Below are positions 960 through 56,917 of a stretch of DNA of 64,000 nt, piece by piece. The notes under the pieces were generated by a model. It worked only from the letters and a program-made list of their open reading frames with translations. It ran no database searches and was not told the origin of the DNA. This DNA comes from Anaeropeptidivorans aminofermentans (GTDB lineage: Bacteria > Bacillota > Clostridia > Lachnospirales > UBA5962), in assembly GCF_940670685.1 (NCBI RefSeq), contig NZ_OW711693.1, forward strand, positions 1,116,001 through 1,180,000, read 5' to 3'. The stretch's first letter is position 1. Every line of letters begins with the position of its first letter. The position numbers and the translations under genes are program-made.

Positions 960-1100
960 TTAAATAAGGTTGTGTTCACGCAAATCTAAACAAGCATCTA
1001 AAAGAGCATTATTACGCACAGGGTCAGTATCTCCTAATGTATATACTACTTTTCCTACGCTGTATGAATAAGTAGTTTGTCGGCTAAATACCACCTCTTT
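960..1100 (-). pseudogene. Possible remnant of an unknown gene
   Basis: The minus frame ending at 960 reads a protein-like tail, VVYTLGDTDPVRNNAL followed by LDACLDLREHNLI, before TAA. It has no clear ribosome binding site and no upstream continuation, and overlaps the leader of the epimerase gene. The family was not recognised. It could be a chance frame. Confidence 0.22.
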
Positions 1101-19067: not shown

Positions 19068-20594
19068 TTACCTTTTAAAAAGTATTTTCATATCATTTCT
19101 TGATATAGTGCCTATAGAAACTACTGCAATAATATATATGAGGCCTAAAATTAATGTGCCGGCTAGAAGACCCAAAACATCGCCAAGATAGAAGAAAAGA
19201 AGGTCCTTAAAAAGGTTTACCGTAAGGCATGCAGCCGTTATGGCAAGAGAAGGCTTTAAAAACCAATTGCCAAAATCTATGGACATATGGGATACTTTTC
19301 TTATTTTAAATATGCTTAAGGAACATACAACGCATAATGCTACAAAGGACCCCAGTATATAGCCTTTTATTCCTATAATGGGAACGGAGGTCCATACGAA
19401 AAATATGGATATGGCAGAAGACAATAGAGAGTTTTTAAATATAAAAACCTGTTCGCCGAAGCCGTTTAAGATTCCCGAAAAGGTGGTATTCATATAGGTA
19501 AAAGGACACATAATGCCAAGGTAAATGAGTATTTCAGCAATATCTTCATTATATATGATACTGCCCAGGTTTCCCGAATAAAGTATAAAAAAGCCGGCGG
19601 CACATATCCCTATGATATTTGTAAAAAGAAGCACTTTAGAAACTGTAAAATTAATTCTTTTCATATTGTTTACAGCCAATGCCTCGGAAATTGCCGGTAC
19701 CAAAGATATGGCAAGGGACACAAGGATTGCCGAGGGAAACATAATAAGAGGCATTGCCATTCCCGATATTTTTCCGAATTCTTCCATGGCTTGAGAGCCT
19801 GTTAAGCCGGAAAGCTGAAGCCTTTGCGGAAGCATCATATTTTCTATGCTTAAAAGCAAAGAGCCGCTTACCCTATTTAAAGTAAGAGGAAGAGACATGG
19901 AAAAAATAAGGATAAAAGAATCAAAGGTCGTATAGGAAGGTTTTTTATTAAAAGAATTTTTCGCTTTAAAATATTTATAGGAAAAGATAATCATTAAAAA
20001 TGAGAAAAATTCCCCGAGAAATATGCCGATAACGGCGGCGGCGCAGGCAAACTCAAGCCCCATGGGAATAAGCTTATGAGACAGGGCAAAAATCGCAGCC
20101 ATTCTCACGAGCTGTTCAAAAACTTGGCTTACGGCAGGAACGGTGGTTTCCTGCAAACCGTAGAAATATCCTCTGATACAGGAGCCGGCAGCCATAAAAG
20201 GAAAAGAAAGAGAGAGTATCTTCAGGGAAAGAATAAGCCTTTCGTCCTTTACAAAATTTGCTGCTGCAAATTCTGCGTTAAAGAAAAGAAGCACTGATAA
20301 TAAAAGGCCAAGGCCTGAGGTTATTACAAGAGACTGCTTTAAAATACGGCCCATATTTCCATATTCGCCTTTAGCCTGCTCAGCTGAAATAAGCTTAGAC
20401 AAGGTTGTCGTAAAGCCTGAACAGGATATGCTCCATGCCAGAGAGTATATGGGCATAATAAGCTGATAGAGACCCATTCCTTCTGCGCCGATTACATTTG
20501 ACATATATATTCTGTAAACAAACCCCAATATACGGTTGATTATTCCCGACGCCGTCAGTATGGCAGCCGATTTAATGATGCCTTTTTTAGCCAT
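19068..20594 (-). CDS. spoVB: SpoVB-like polysaccharide/lipid flippase (MOP superfamily)
   Basis: The 508-residue membrane protein has about 14 hydrophobic segments and the start KSAAILTASGIINRILGFVYRIYMSNVIGAEG typical of SpoVB/MurJ-related flippases. It would move lipid-linked wall precursors across the membrane; SpoVB acts in spore cortex synthesis. AAAGGGG lies seven bases before the ATG. Other YtgP/SpoVB-like paralogues exist in Firmicutes, so the exact orthology is not certain. Confidence 0.8.
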   Translation of the reverse strand: MAKKGIIKSAAILTASGIINRILGFVYRIYMSNVIGAEGMGLYQLIMPIYSLAWSISCSGFTTTLSKLISAEQAKGEYGNMGRILKQSLVITSGLGLLLSVLLFFNAEFAAANFVKDERLILSLKILSLSFPFMAAGSCIRGYFYGLQETTVPAVSQVFEQLVRMAAIFALSHKLIPMGLEFACAAAVIGIFLGEFFSFLMIIFSYKYFKAKNSFNKKPSYTTFDSFILIFSMSLPLTLNRVSGSLLLSIENMMLPQRLQLSGLTGSQAMEEFGKISGMAMPLIMFPSAILVSLAISLVPAISEALAVNNMKRINFTVSKVLLFTNIIGICAAGFFILYSGNLGSIIYNEDIAEILIYLGIMCPFTYMNTTFSGILNGFGEQVFIFKNSLLSSAISIFFVWTSVPIIGIKGYILGSFVALCVVCSLSIFKIRKVSHMSIDFGNWFLKPSLAITAACLTVNLFKDLLFFYLGDVLGLLAGTLILGLIYIIAVVSIGTISRNDMKILFKR

Positions 20595-20701: not shown

Positions 20702-20932
20702 TATAGTAAATTTCACTGAAGGATGTAATAAAAATCTATTTTTCATAAACGGATTAAACATATAAAAGCCCTATGTTTAATCTATTCATAGCCAACAAAG
20801 ATTAAAATATCTTTGTTGGCTATGAGGGGCGTTCGCCTGAAAACACTTTAACAGTTTCCCTATAAGTGTTTCCAGGTTCACTAAGTATAAAATATACGAT
20901 TTTTATTACTGTTTCATTTGAAATTTACTATA
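20702..20932. repeat. Family A miniature inverted-repeat element, copy 2 (231 bp)
   Basis: It has the same perfect 14-bp ends and three stem-loops as the copy at 17294-17525. The first hairpin reads GGATTAAACAT / ATGTTTAATCT, a paired C-G to A-T replacement relative to copy 1. The second hairpin is perfect here (ATAGCCAACAAAGAT / ATCTTTGTTGGCTAT). It is inserted 13 bases past the stop of the minus-strand gene at 20945. Confidence 0.87.
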
Positions 20933-20944
20933 GAACGGCGAATG

Positions 20945-21436
20945 CTACATTTTGCTTCTTCTCATATATTCCTTCTGCTTTTGAAATTCTTTTTCAACAG
21001 CACTGGGGTCACATTTATATTTATAGTCGAGAAAGTGGCTTATGAGGCCGATTCCCCAGGGAAGAGCTACAAATAAAAACCACATTTCACCGTCTGCAAA
21101 GGACATTATCATCAGCATAAGGTTTATGATAACATAAGCTACCAGGTGATTGATAAAAGCTCTTCGTGCTCTTACTATTTTTTGTGCTCTTTTATAAAGA
21201 GCTTCATCGGATAAAGTTGATGTATCTTCATAGGGCTCTGCAACCTCATAAGCCCTAGGGCCGTTCGTATTATTATCTTCCATAGGATTACGCTCCTTTT
21301 CCTCGTCAAATATGCAAATCGTGTTATAATCACTCCAAGCCGCCCTGCCTGATTTCACAAGCTGGCGGGCTCTTTTCAAATAAGTAGGGGCTAGGCTGTT
21401 GCCCAGCTTATCTACTACAAGGATCTCTTTATTCAT
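20945..21436 (-). CDS. PLMP/RRXRR-motif protein with C-terminal 2TM domain
   Basis: The 163-residue product has an unusual architecture. Residues 5-32 read ILVVDKLGNSLAPTYLKRAR and QLVKSGRAAW, matching the RRXRR (PLMP) motif known from the N-terminus of IscB/IsrB-type proteins and other HNH-associated proteins. A polar linker follows (residues 45-85). The C-terminal half contains a 2TM domain: RRAFINHLVAYVIINLMLMI, a second helix MWFLFVALPWGIGLISHFL, and a basic tail. No nuclease domain is present. The ATG follows an AGGAGGG site. Function is unknown; the membrane domain suggests a small anchored protein. Confidence 0.82.
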   Translation of the reverse strand: MNKEILVVDKLGNSLAPTYLKRARQLVKSGRAAWSDYNTICIFDEEKERNPMEDNNTNGPRAYEVAEPYEDTSTLSDEALYKRAQKIVRARRAFINHLVAYVIINLMLMIMSFADGEMWFLFVALPWGIGLISHFLDYKYKCDPSAVEKEFQKQKEYMRRSKM

Positions 21437-21639
21437 AAAGCCCTCCTCTTTAAATATCTGTTTTTTGTTATGGGTGGCGTCCCCATCGATATGCGCCGTT
21501 TTTTATTATGGGTGCCTCCCCGGCATACCGTGCAAATTAAAGCTTTATAAATATATAATATGAATATGTAGATTTACTTAAACAATAAAATAAACCCACT
21601 ATACAAGATTATTCGTATTTTAAAGGGAAAAGTCTGAAA

Positions 21640-22077
21640 TTATGCTTTATTTCTGAAATCCATTTTGAATATCTGATAGGGCAGGGCCAGAACGATTACA
21701 ATGCCTAAGGATATAACCCCTGCCGTGCGAACAGTATCAATGCCGTAGCTGGCTGCAAGGACAGAATTTCCGGTTAAAATATTATACATGGTGTAATATA
21801 TGGCAACCCCCGGGACAAGAGGGATGATTCCTGCAATAAGATATAAAGTAATGGGATTTTTCCTTTTGAAAGAAAAGAATCTGCTTGCGGTTGTGGCGGC
21901 AATTGAAGCCGAAAAGATGGGCATTACATTTGAAGATGCCCCGGGGCTTAAAAGTTCATAGATAAGCCACCCGATTGCGCCGCAGAGCCCGCAGCATATG
22001 AGCTCTTTTTTAGGAACACCGAATAATAATGAAAATGTAAGGCTTGCGACAAAAGTAAGCAATATTCTTAAGACCAT
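21640..22077 (-). CDS. ThrE-type exporter, small subunit (YjjB/ThrE_2-like)
   Basis: The 145-residue membrane protein has about four helices (MVLRILLTFVASLTFSLLFG first) and the ThrE_2 pattern IPLVPGVAIYYTMYNILTG. With the adjacent larger subunit it should form a proton-driven amino-acid or dicarboxylate exporter, as in YjjP/YjjB. The start at 22077 is chosen because the family N-terminus begins there. It overlaps the end of the upstream gene by ten bases, so expression is coupled. A longer frame to 22143 lies wholly inside that gene. Confidence 0.85.
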   Translation of the reverse strand: MVLRILLTFVASLTFSLLFGVPKKELICCGLCGAIGWLIYELLSPGASSNVMPIFSASIAATTASRFFSFKRKNPITLYLIAGIIPLVPGVAIYYTMYNILTGNSVLAASYGIDTVRTAGVISLGIVIVLALPYQIFKMDFRNKA

Positions 22078-22847
22078 AGGGAAAGCGCTCCAATCGCATA
22101 AAATATAATACCTAAGCCGATACCGACCCCTGTGGCAACGCATACGGCAACGAGCACAGCGTCAATCATGCGGGTGGTTCCGGAGATATATTCCCCGAAG
22201 ATAATATCCCTTACGGCATTTGTAAAGGCTACCCCGGGAACAAGAGGCATAATTGAGCCTATGATGGACATATCTGTACTATCTCCAAGGCCCATGTGAT
22301 TGATTATAACAGCTGCCATGCTTACGAAGGCGCCTCCCATAATGTTTGTAACAGGGCCTATGACACTGTGTTTTTCAAGAAATATTAAAAATACATAAAG
22401 CAAAAAGCCGGTAATAAAAGCATTTAGGGCATCGAAAAAGCTTCCGCCGAATATAAAAGCGAAACAGCCGCTGGAAATACCGGAAGCAAAGTATTTATAT
22501 AAATTCTTGTAAGAAGGCTTGTTGCTTATAAGATTAAGCTGTATAATAGCCGCGTCTATGCTGATTTGCTCCGATACGAGATTTCTCGAAAGATTATTTA
22601 TAAGGGCTACCTTCTCAAGATTTATGGTTCGGGTGTTTATCCTTCTTACCATGGTTATAATATTGCCGTTATCGTCTACAATAGAGCCGAATATGCCTGT
22701 AGGCGTTGCAAATACGTCATTTTCTTTAAATGCGTATATTTTTAAAAGCCTTATCATCGTATCTTCAACTCTCGTTGTTTCTGCGCCGTTTTGAAGCATA
22801 ACGGCTCCCGAGTCTATTACAAATTTCAATATTTTCTGTGAATCCAT
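22068..22847 (-). CDS. ThrE-type exporter, large subunit (YjjP/DUF1212-like)
   Basis: The 259-residue protein has a soluble N-terminal segment (residues 1-115) with the family words SGAVMLQNGAETTRVEDTM and TPTGIFGSIVDD. About five membrane helices follow, with IMPLVPGVAFTNAVRDI. In one-piece ThrE proteins this and the small subunit are fused; here they are split. It lies 18 bases after the phosphatase gene, suggesting a three-gene unit. Confidence 0.88.
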   Translation of the reverse strand: MDSQKILKFVIDSGAVMLQNGAETTRVEDTMIRLLKIYAFKENDVFATPTGIFGSIVDDNGNIITMVRRINTRTINLEKVALINNLSRNLVSEQISIDAAIIQLNLISNKPSYKNLYKYFASGISSGCFAFIFGGSFFDALNAFITGFLLYVFLIFLEKHSVIGPVTNIMGGAFVSMAAVIINHMGLGDSTDMSIIGSIMPLVPGVAFTNAVRDIIFGEYISGTTRMIDAVLVAVCVATGVGIGLGIIFYAIGALSLWS

Positions 22848-56665: not shown

Positions 56666-56724
56666 ATATATCGTCTAGTATGAATATTTATGTTTTCTAA
56701 TATGAAAATGCGTTTGAGGAAAAA

Positions 56725-56917
56725 TAAGATTGTCCTAGTTTTCAGAGAGCAGGCGTTTGGTGTGAGCCCGCAGCAAAAGCAATCCGTCCAATTTCCAAGC
56801 ATACGGCAAACCCGTAAGGCAGGTACCTTTATCTACCGTTAGAGTGGCTGTTTTTTTACAGCAATTTGGGTGGCAACACGGAGCTTTTCGTCCCATGGGG
56901 ATAGAGCTCCTTTTTTA
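56725..56917 (+). promoter_or_regulatory. T-box leader controlling serS
   Basis: Stem I is closed by GATTG (56728) and CAATC (56780-56784) and contains the AGAGAG motif. The T-box core TTTGGGTGGCAACACGG is at 56866-56882. The TGGC bulge would pair with the GCCA end of uncharged serine tRNA (discriminator G), which fits the downstream gene. A candidate specifier is AGC (56772-56774); TCC (56787-56789) is the alternative. The terminator hairpin GGAGCT...AGCTCC with six T (56880-56917) competes with antitermination. Uncharged tRNA-Ser should raise serS expression. Confidence 0.88.

Follow-up and report, generated by a model that had tools for sequence, protein, structure and literature searches.

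In the structure of IsrB, the PLMP domain contacts SL7 and SL8, two tandem hairpins that terminate the wRNA on its 3′ side; SL7 holds the isrB Shine-Dalgarno sequence, and the authors suggest a role for this contact in isrB expression; the PLMP fold is reported there to resemble the N-terminal domain of initiation factor 3 (IF3-N) (PMC9581776). In IscB, PLMP recognizes the terminal hairpins, mainly without sequence specificity (PMC9640706). Here we describe a PLMP-2TM protein gene located at 20945–21436 on the minus strand of a 64,000-nucleotide (nt) stretch of the Anaeropeptidivorans aminofermentans genome (positions 1,116,001–1,180,000 of contig NZ_OW711693.1; this whole stretch is hereafter called the window). 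The gene encodes a protein of 163 amino acids in which a PLMP-type module is followed by a 2TM membrane domain, and it is preceded on the same strand by two tandem copies of a structured RNA element (21454–21530). Like the IscB/IsrB OMEGA systems, this locus combines a homologous small N-terminal domain with a structured RNA directly 5′ of the open reading frame (ORF); unlike them, the family to which it belongs has no RuvC, bridge helix or HNH. By this comparison, the family looks like the PLMP/hairpin interface of IsrB standing alone at the ribosome-binding region.

The ORF is present as the first-pass annotation of this stretch had drawn it, with an ATG start and a good Shine-Dalgarno sequence. 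The annotation had assigned the N-terminal 28 residues to the RRXRR/PLMP signature and the remainder to a 2TM domain without HNH or RuvC. The latter assignment was borne out: residues 82–158 (20963–21193, minus strand) matched 2TM (PF13239) with E = 6.6e-15 and 55.4 bits, above the Pfam cut-off of 24.8, the structural model displayed helices at residues 77–115, 120–141 and 144–162, and no RuvC or HNH family match was obtained for the protein in Pfam and NCBIfam scans. The profile search on which the annotation had staked the former assignment returned an RRXRR match (PF14239) over residues 5–42 with E = 3e-4 and 21.2 bits, below the Pfam gathering score of 25, and this match was confined to profile positions 1–38 of 174; the NCBIfam IscB model was likewise matched at positions 1–38 only (E = 0.0014). 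A PLMP-type module is thus present as proposed, but it is about 42 residues long (residues 1–42; 21311–21436, minus strand) rather than 28, and it reads SLAP where the literal PLMP motif was expected.

The identity of the module was examined by profile and structure comparison. When 56 diverse modules were aligned with seven IscB PLMP domains using hhalign, a probability of 96.3% was obtained (E = 1.9e-9, 44 columns), and 35 of the 56 modules matched RRXRR at E ≤ 0.1. The AlphaFold model of the window protein displayed the order strand-strand-helix-strand-strand for residues 4–42, with a predicted local confidence (pLDDT) of 88–96 for the block across residues 1–40. The top nine matches of this model in a Foldseek search against PDB were all IscB/IsrB PLMP domains (probability 0.97–1.00, root-mean-square deviation (rmsd) 0.6–2.5, 41–47 columns), with E-values (0.04–0.42) that are individually weak because the domain is short, and VIA-align superimposed the module on HfmIscB with Z = 7.1 and an rmsd of 1.3 over 43 residues. 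The agreement of hhalign with AlphaFold, Foldseek and VIA-align therefore indicates that the module is a PLMP domain by homology and fold, with the literal P-L-M-P residues absent from most relatives.

The window gene is a member of an undescribed Clostridia family whose proteins combine this module, at the N-terminus, with several unrelated C-terminal parts. The first search covered the genomes of 57 relatives, and the later sets comprised 392 genomes of the order and approximately 85,000 species genomes. Matches were found in 14 of the 57 relatives, several of them covering both the module and the membrane part, and a search with a 16-row module alignment detected the module in 55 of the 392 order genomes; as many as six modules occur in one genome, and most of the ORFs are 154–595 amino acids long. 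Of 299 genomes drawn evenly from the phylum, only three gave a match to the module profile, namely the genome of the window itself, one in which the element is also present (L280) and one with an IscB. The 103 module ORFs from the order and 118 from named genomes gave 208 non-redundant proteins; one or more membrane segments were predicted in 70 of them and none in 138, and their C-terminal parts fell into eight single-linkage clusters. A single genome (G116) carries six modules, with C-termini of membrane, soluble and beta-sandwich type. No confident Pfam or NCBIfam assignment was obtained for seven representative C-terminal parts, and nothing convincing was found for the C-terminal parts in Pfam, NCBIfam, PHROGs or PADLOC besides 2TM and coiled-coil-type matches. 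For a member of one soluble type (L171), AlphaFold predicted the PLMP domain followed by a jelly-roll-like sandwich and long helices, with structural matches, reaching Z = 9.4, to carbohydrate-binding modules and to the folds of Eph and meprin. The 2TM domain also occurs without the module, as in L002, L009 and L012, which match over the membrane part only; in the window protein, 2TM forms the C-terminal part, and in the family it is one of several payloads. No prior description of a nuclease-free PLMP family or of its RNA was found among the papers listed in searches of the open-access PubMed Central literature, preprints and subscription papers being outside the scope of that search.

These data bear on the two roles that the annotation had offered for the module. 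A domesticated fragment, understood as a one-off, was not supported, as the family has several C-terminal kinds. More generally, an isolated IscB/IsrB fragment that had been domesticated and had no RNA function would account for the relatedness of the module to IscB PLMP in the hhalign comparison, but it is contradicted by a large family with its own RNA, and we regard it as extremely improbable; nor would a degenerate leftover be expected to retain a near-invariant RNA core with covarying stems (see below). The other suggestion, a general role in RNA or protein binding, is in keeping with a large family that has an RNA of its own, the binding itself being something that we infer.

The annotation had further suggested a search for a nearby structured RNA, and the element was found directly upstream of the PLMP gene. 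Reading the upstream sequences of module genes yielded the consensus GGGGANGGCACCCATNAYAAAAAACAGC. The element consists of a P1 hairpin of 3–5 base pairs (bp), whose loop carries a conserved GGCA, together with an outer stem (P0) and an A-rich tail; the P1 pairings include GGG/CCC and, by eye, also GAG/CTC, GAGG/CCTC and GGAG/CTCC, and in many membrane-type genes an extra hairpin is inserted ahead of the A-run. In the window, copy 1 (21487–21530, minus strand) was identified by a covariance model (R1), by folding and by the pattern, and comprises P0 CGGUAUGC/GCAUAUCG, P1 GGG-GAGGCA-CCC and the A-rich tail AUAAUAAAAAAC; R1 matched it at 21483–21531 with E = 1.8e-8 in its own genome. Copy 2 (21454–21492, minus strand), with a pattern match at 21460–21476, comprises P1 AUGGG/CCCAU, the tail AUAACAAAAAAC and a possible P0 AUAUC/GAUAU. 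The P0 arms of the tandem copies overlap at 21487–21494 (minus strand), where GCAUAUCG serves copy 1 as the 3′ arm and AUAUC would serve copy 2; because these bases are shared, the outer stems of the two copies should be mutually exclusive.

Across loci, the P0 arms vary freely in sequence while complementarity is retained. When the 3′ flanks were permuted among loci (500 permutations, flanks sharing the last 8 bases removed), the 125 site-1 flanks had a mean of 3.67 contiguous Watson-Crick bp compared with 2.19 ± 0.084 after permutation (permuted maximum, 2.49), and the 69 start-codon (site-2) copies had a mean of 3.84 bp compared with 2.74 ± 0.113 (permuted maximum, 3.12). For the start-overlapping copies, an earlier set of 15 had not given a significant difference (2.8 versus 2.4, s.d. 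0.23), and significance was reached with 69. Covariation in a 25-row alignment was 0.309 compared with 0.09–0.14 for slid partners, and none of 500 shuffles was as high; for 109 model-aligned matches, in an alignment that leans towards its own structure, the values were 0.235 and 0.056–0.088, respectively. The conserved sequence could alternatively be a DNA element, serving as an operator or marking the terminus of a mobile element that carries the gene, for which its fixed place near the promoter and its sporadic, multi-copy distribution would be suitable. However, the stem arms vary yet keep pairing, the inserted hairpins differ in length, the element is always in gene sense and 5′, no conserved neighbour genes were found among 120 loci, no plasmid match was obtained for one soluble member and no exact match was found in viral contigs. 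We therefore consider a DNA element very unlikely.

Some other candidate features were rejected. An H-type pseudoknot, seen by eye, in which the P1 loop would pair with bases following the A-run, was unsupported by permutation (simple class, 2.23 versus 2.15; hairpin class, 2.0 versus 1.98; start-overlapping class, 2.67 versus 2.40, s.d. 0.166), a test from which nine regular-expression (regex) matches judged spurious and short flanks had been dropped (111 to 100). A likeness to the preQ1-I riboswitch found no Rfam match; a frameshift heptamer, A_AAA_AAC, noticed by eye, was discounted as a general feature because it is untranslated in the window copies and differs in frame among loci; and a conserved upstream peptide is broken by the hairpin-insert variants. 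Unlike a wRNA, the element is roughly 50–70 nt per copy and has no recognized guide-like segment. Searches with Rfam 15 covered the window (gathering score), eight related loci (E ≤ 5) and the leader (E ≤ 10), and gave neither a HEARO (wRNA) match nor any other match relevant to the element. At one relative's locus (L008, 1236–1387, plus strand), a sub-threshold Clostridiales-1 RNA (41.8 bits, cut-off 48) lies just 5′ of the PLMP leader element.

The element is closely linked to module genes. An exact DNA pattern scanned over the species genomes gave at least 120 matching stretches, at least four of which (L164, L175, L203 and L204) are genomes already used for motif finding. Among the matches listed, 118 of 120 have a PLMP-module ORF 16–160 nt downstream on the same strand; in another listed match (L149), the sequence ends at a contig edge, 82 nt past the motif start. 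At the remaining one, L263 (3706, plus strand), both elements and the first coding residues are kept and a lipoprotein signal stands in place of the PLMP module, which is, judging from the sequence, a natural case of module loss. The organisms named for 80 of the matches listed are Clostridia, save one 'uncultured bacterium'. In the 57 relatives, the pattern with up to three mismatches gave 10 matches, nine of them before PLMP genes; the tenth, with three mismatches, comes from a genome in which no module was matched. Two unannotated fecal records labelled 'Bacteriophage sp.' (L283 and L284) contain the module together with both elements, and they may represent either phage carriage or mislabelled host DNA.

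A comparable linkage was observed with R1, which gave 45 matches at E ≤ 1e-4 in the 392 genomes, none of them in a module-free genome; as the 25 elements used to build R1 came from the genomes that were later scanned, many of these matches arise by construction, and the E-values are rough. Known module genes account for 43 of the 45; of the other two, one lies where a contig breaks immediately ahead of such a gene and one precedes a decayed remnant. At L265 (approximately 1008–1056, plus strand), all that follows the element is the C-terminal tail of a membrane-type member; this gene has decayed but retains its leader. At E of about 4e-4, R1 also matched in L266 and L267, genomes without the module. 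Conversely, an element was detected by regex at 87 of the 103 module ORFs of the order set (six regex matches having been dropped from this count), and L051, L057, L099, L107 and L120, which the regex missed, gave model matches at E 1e-5 to 0.1.

This linkage can be set against the idea of a riboswitch, or of a leader read by another factor, with the PLMP module doing something else. The compact conserved core, outer stem and optional hairpin do resemble small regulatory leaders, as does the leader position after a -10 box. However, a ligand switch normally precedes non-homologous genes of one pathway, whereas the same 118 of 120 listed matches share one N-terminal module and differ in their C-termini, and Rfam 15 holds no match; such a switch appears distinctly doubtful.

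The position of the element was similarly regular. At 79 of the 111 named loci, a -10-like hexamer begins 11–20 nt 5′ of the G-run (3–29 loci in the other 10-nt bins), and element 1 should therefore lie near the mRNA 5′ end; in the order set, the signal was weaker (best bin, 33 of 84; others, 4–24). Two copies were found at 100 of 118 loci, one at 14 and three at four, with a usual spacing of 40–80 nt. In 87 cases, the last copy spans the start region in frame, and the AUN of these copies is ATG in 36, ATC in 33, ATA in 17 and ATT in one; eight of the 87 genes have no in-frame ATG, GTG or TTG upstream, leaving only AUA/AUC in frame. Genes with RAxGL modules and soluble C-termini usually have an upstream copy and a start-codon copy, and those with RAxQL modules and membrane parts have upstream copies only, often with an inserted hairpin. 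The window gene is of the RAxQL/membrane type, with two upstream copies, the nearer of which ends about 6 nt before the Shine-Dalgarno sequence (AGGAGGG, 21441–21447, minus strand) that precedes the ATG at 21434–21436. A 5′-terminal structure that stabilizes the mRNA or enhances its translation without a protein partner would suit an element placed just after the -10 box, where the outer stem could seal the 5′ end, but it leaves the start-codon copy, the near-invariant unpaired core and the restriction to PLMP genes unexplained, and is accordingly quite improbable.

On balance, we lean towards a function in which the PLMP module binds the element in its own mRNA leader and controls translation, a reading favoured by the linkage, structure and position of the element, by the IsrB and IscB precedents and by the occurrence of one RNA with many C-terminal parts. 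The N-terminal PLMP module would then be the unit that recognizes the one to three element copies of its own 5′ mRNA leader. Of these, element 1 would be at or near the transcript 5′ end; in soluble-type members, element 2 usually lies across the Shine-Dalgarno sequence and start codon, and for the window gene and the majority of membrane-type members, all copies are just 5′ of the Shine-Dalgarno sequence. Binding of the nascent or finished protein to the elements would reduce ribosome loading on its own message and on those of its paralogs, and in membrane-anchored members, it may also keep the mRNA tethered to the membrane. The simplest reading of these arrangements would be that translation is controlled autogenously, with cross-talk among the paralogs of one genome. 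In autogenously regulated leaders, such as those of ribosomal proteins and thrS and the repeats of type III toxin-antitoxin systems, the RNA lies in the gene's own leader, sometimes in tandem; unlike the arrangement, the proteins and RNAs are unrelated to those described here, and the parallel is an analogy only.

Several observations weigh against this proposal. R1 gave no convincing match at 18 IscB/IsrB loci, the one match of 16.2 bits lying approximately 800 nt upstream at L125, and homology of the element to the terminal hairpins of wRNA is therefore unsupported. The contacts of IscB PLMP are described as mainly sequence-independent (PMC9640706), whereas the core of the element is near-invariant. 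The predicted fold of the 111-nt window leader forms the P1 of copy 2 but not its P0. Moreover, 16 of the 103 order-set module ORFs have no element by regex, and although truncated contigs and variants make up some of these, the element seems to be genuinely absent at L013 and L117. Finally, module identity, linkage, RNA structure and position are computed, whereas we infer from them both the binding of the leader by the module and the regulation.

Alternatively, the RNA-PLMP complex may itself be the working product: the protein would carry, localize or package its own mRNA or a processed leader, forming a ribonucleoprotein like that of wRNA and IscB without the nuclease, and translation control would be secondary. 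The occurrence of the same RNA with membrane, coiled-coil and beta-sandwich C-termini is consistent with such a complex, and the wRNA provides a precedent, being encoded just 5′ of the ORF and bound by the protein (PMC9581776, PMC9640706). However, elements placed on the ribosome-binding region, often over the start codon, suit translation control, and no guide-like variable segment was seen; we consider a complex of this kind possible but unlikely.

Translation control by the module also invites comparison with IF3. infC is reported to have a non-canonical start codon, and IF3 to autoregulate translation (PMC5472188). In the family described here, the start-spanning genes that have only AUA/AUC in frame recall infC. 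One of the 56 modules matched IF3_N (PF05198; E = 0.036), hhalign of the module against IF3-N was weak (probability 41, E = 2.8e-4), and so was the VIA superposition on 1tif (Z = 3.6, rmsd 8.7). Unlike IF3, the family has no IF3 C-terminal domain, it has dedicated RNA elements, and most of its members start with ATG or GTG. The parallel of autoregulation through a non-canonical start codon may thus be regarded as suggestive only.

With this family, the PLMP domain, hitherto a feature of OMEGA nucleases, is found without a nuclease and with a defined candidate RNA ligand of approximately 50 nt. The function of PLMP thereby becomes directly testable with small reagents, giving a handle on the rise of wRNA-protein recognition. 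A wider and rather unlikely conjecture is that PLMP and its leader element form a free-standing RNA-protein recognition cassette that has been attached to many proteins. The PLMP domain and terminal hairpins of OMEGA systems, and hence of the lineage leading to Cas9, would be a version of this cassette and perhaps had their origin in it, an IF3-N-like module with a translation-control leader having later been joined to RuvC and the leader having grown into a guide RNA. For Clostridia of the gut and rumen, among them Ruminococcus albus and Intestinibacillus, the family also contributes a new structured RNA and many protein families that lack annotation.

In the surroundings of the window gene, a 16-bp inverted repeat (20787–20802 and 20809–20824), seen by eye, is located between the PLMP gene and a flippase-like gene (19068–20594, minus strand); it resembles a transcription end, but without a clear T-run. 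Upstream of the PLMP gene, at 21640–22847 (minus strand), two genes resemble, by eye, a split threonine/serine exporter pair, and no such neighbour is conserved at the other loci. The sole Rfam match in the window at gathering score is a T-box leader (RF00230) at 56704–56898 (plus strand, 97.7 bits).
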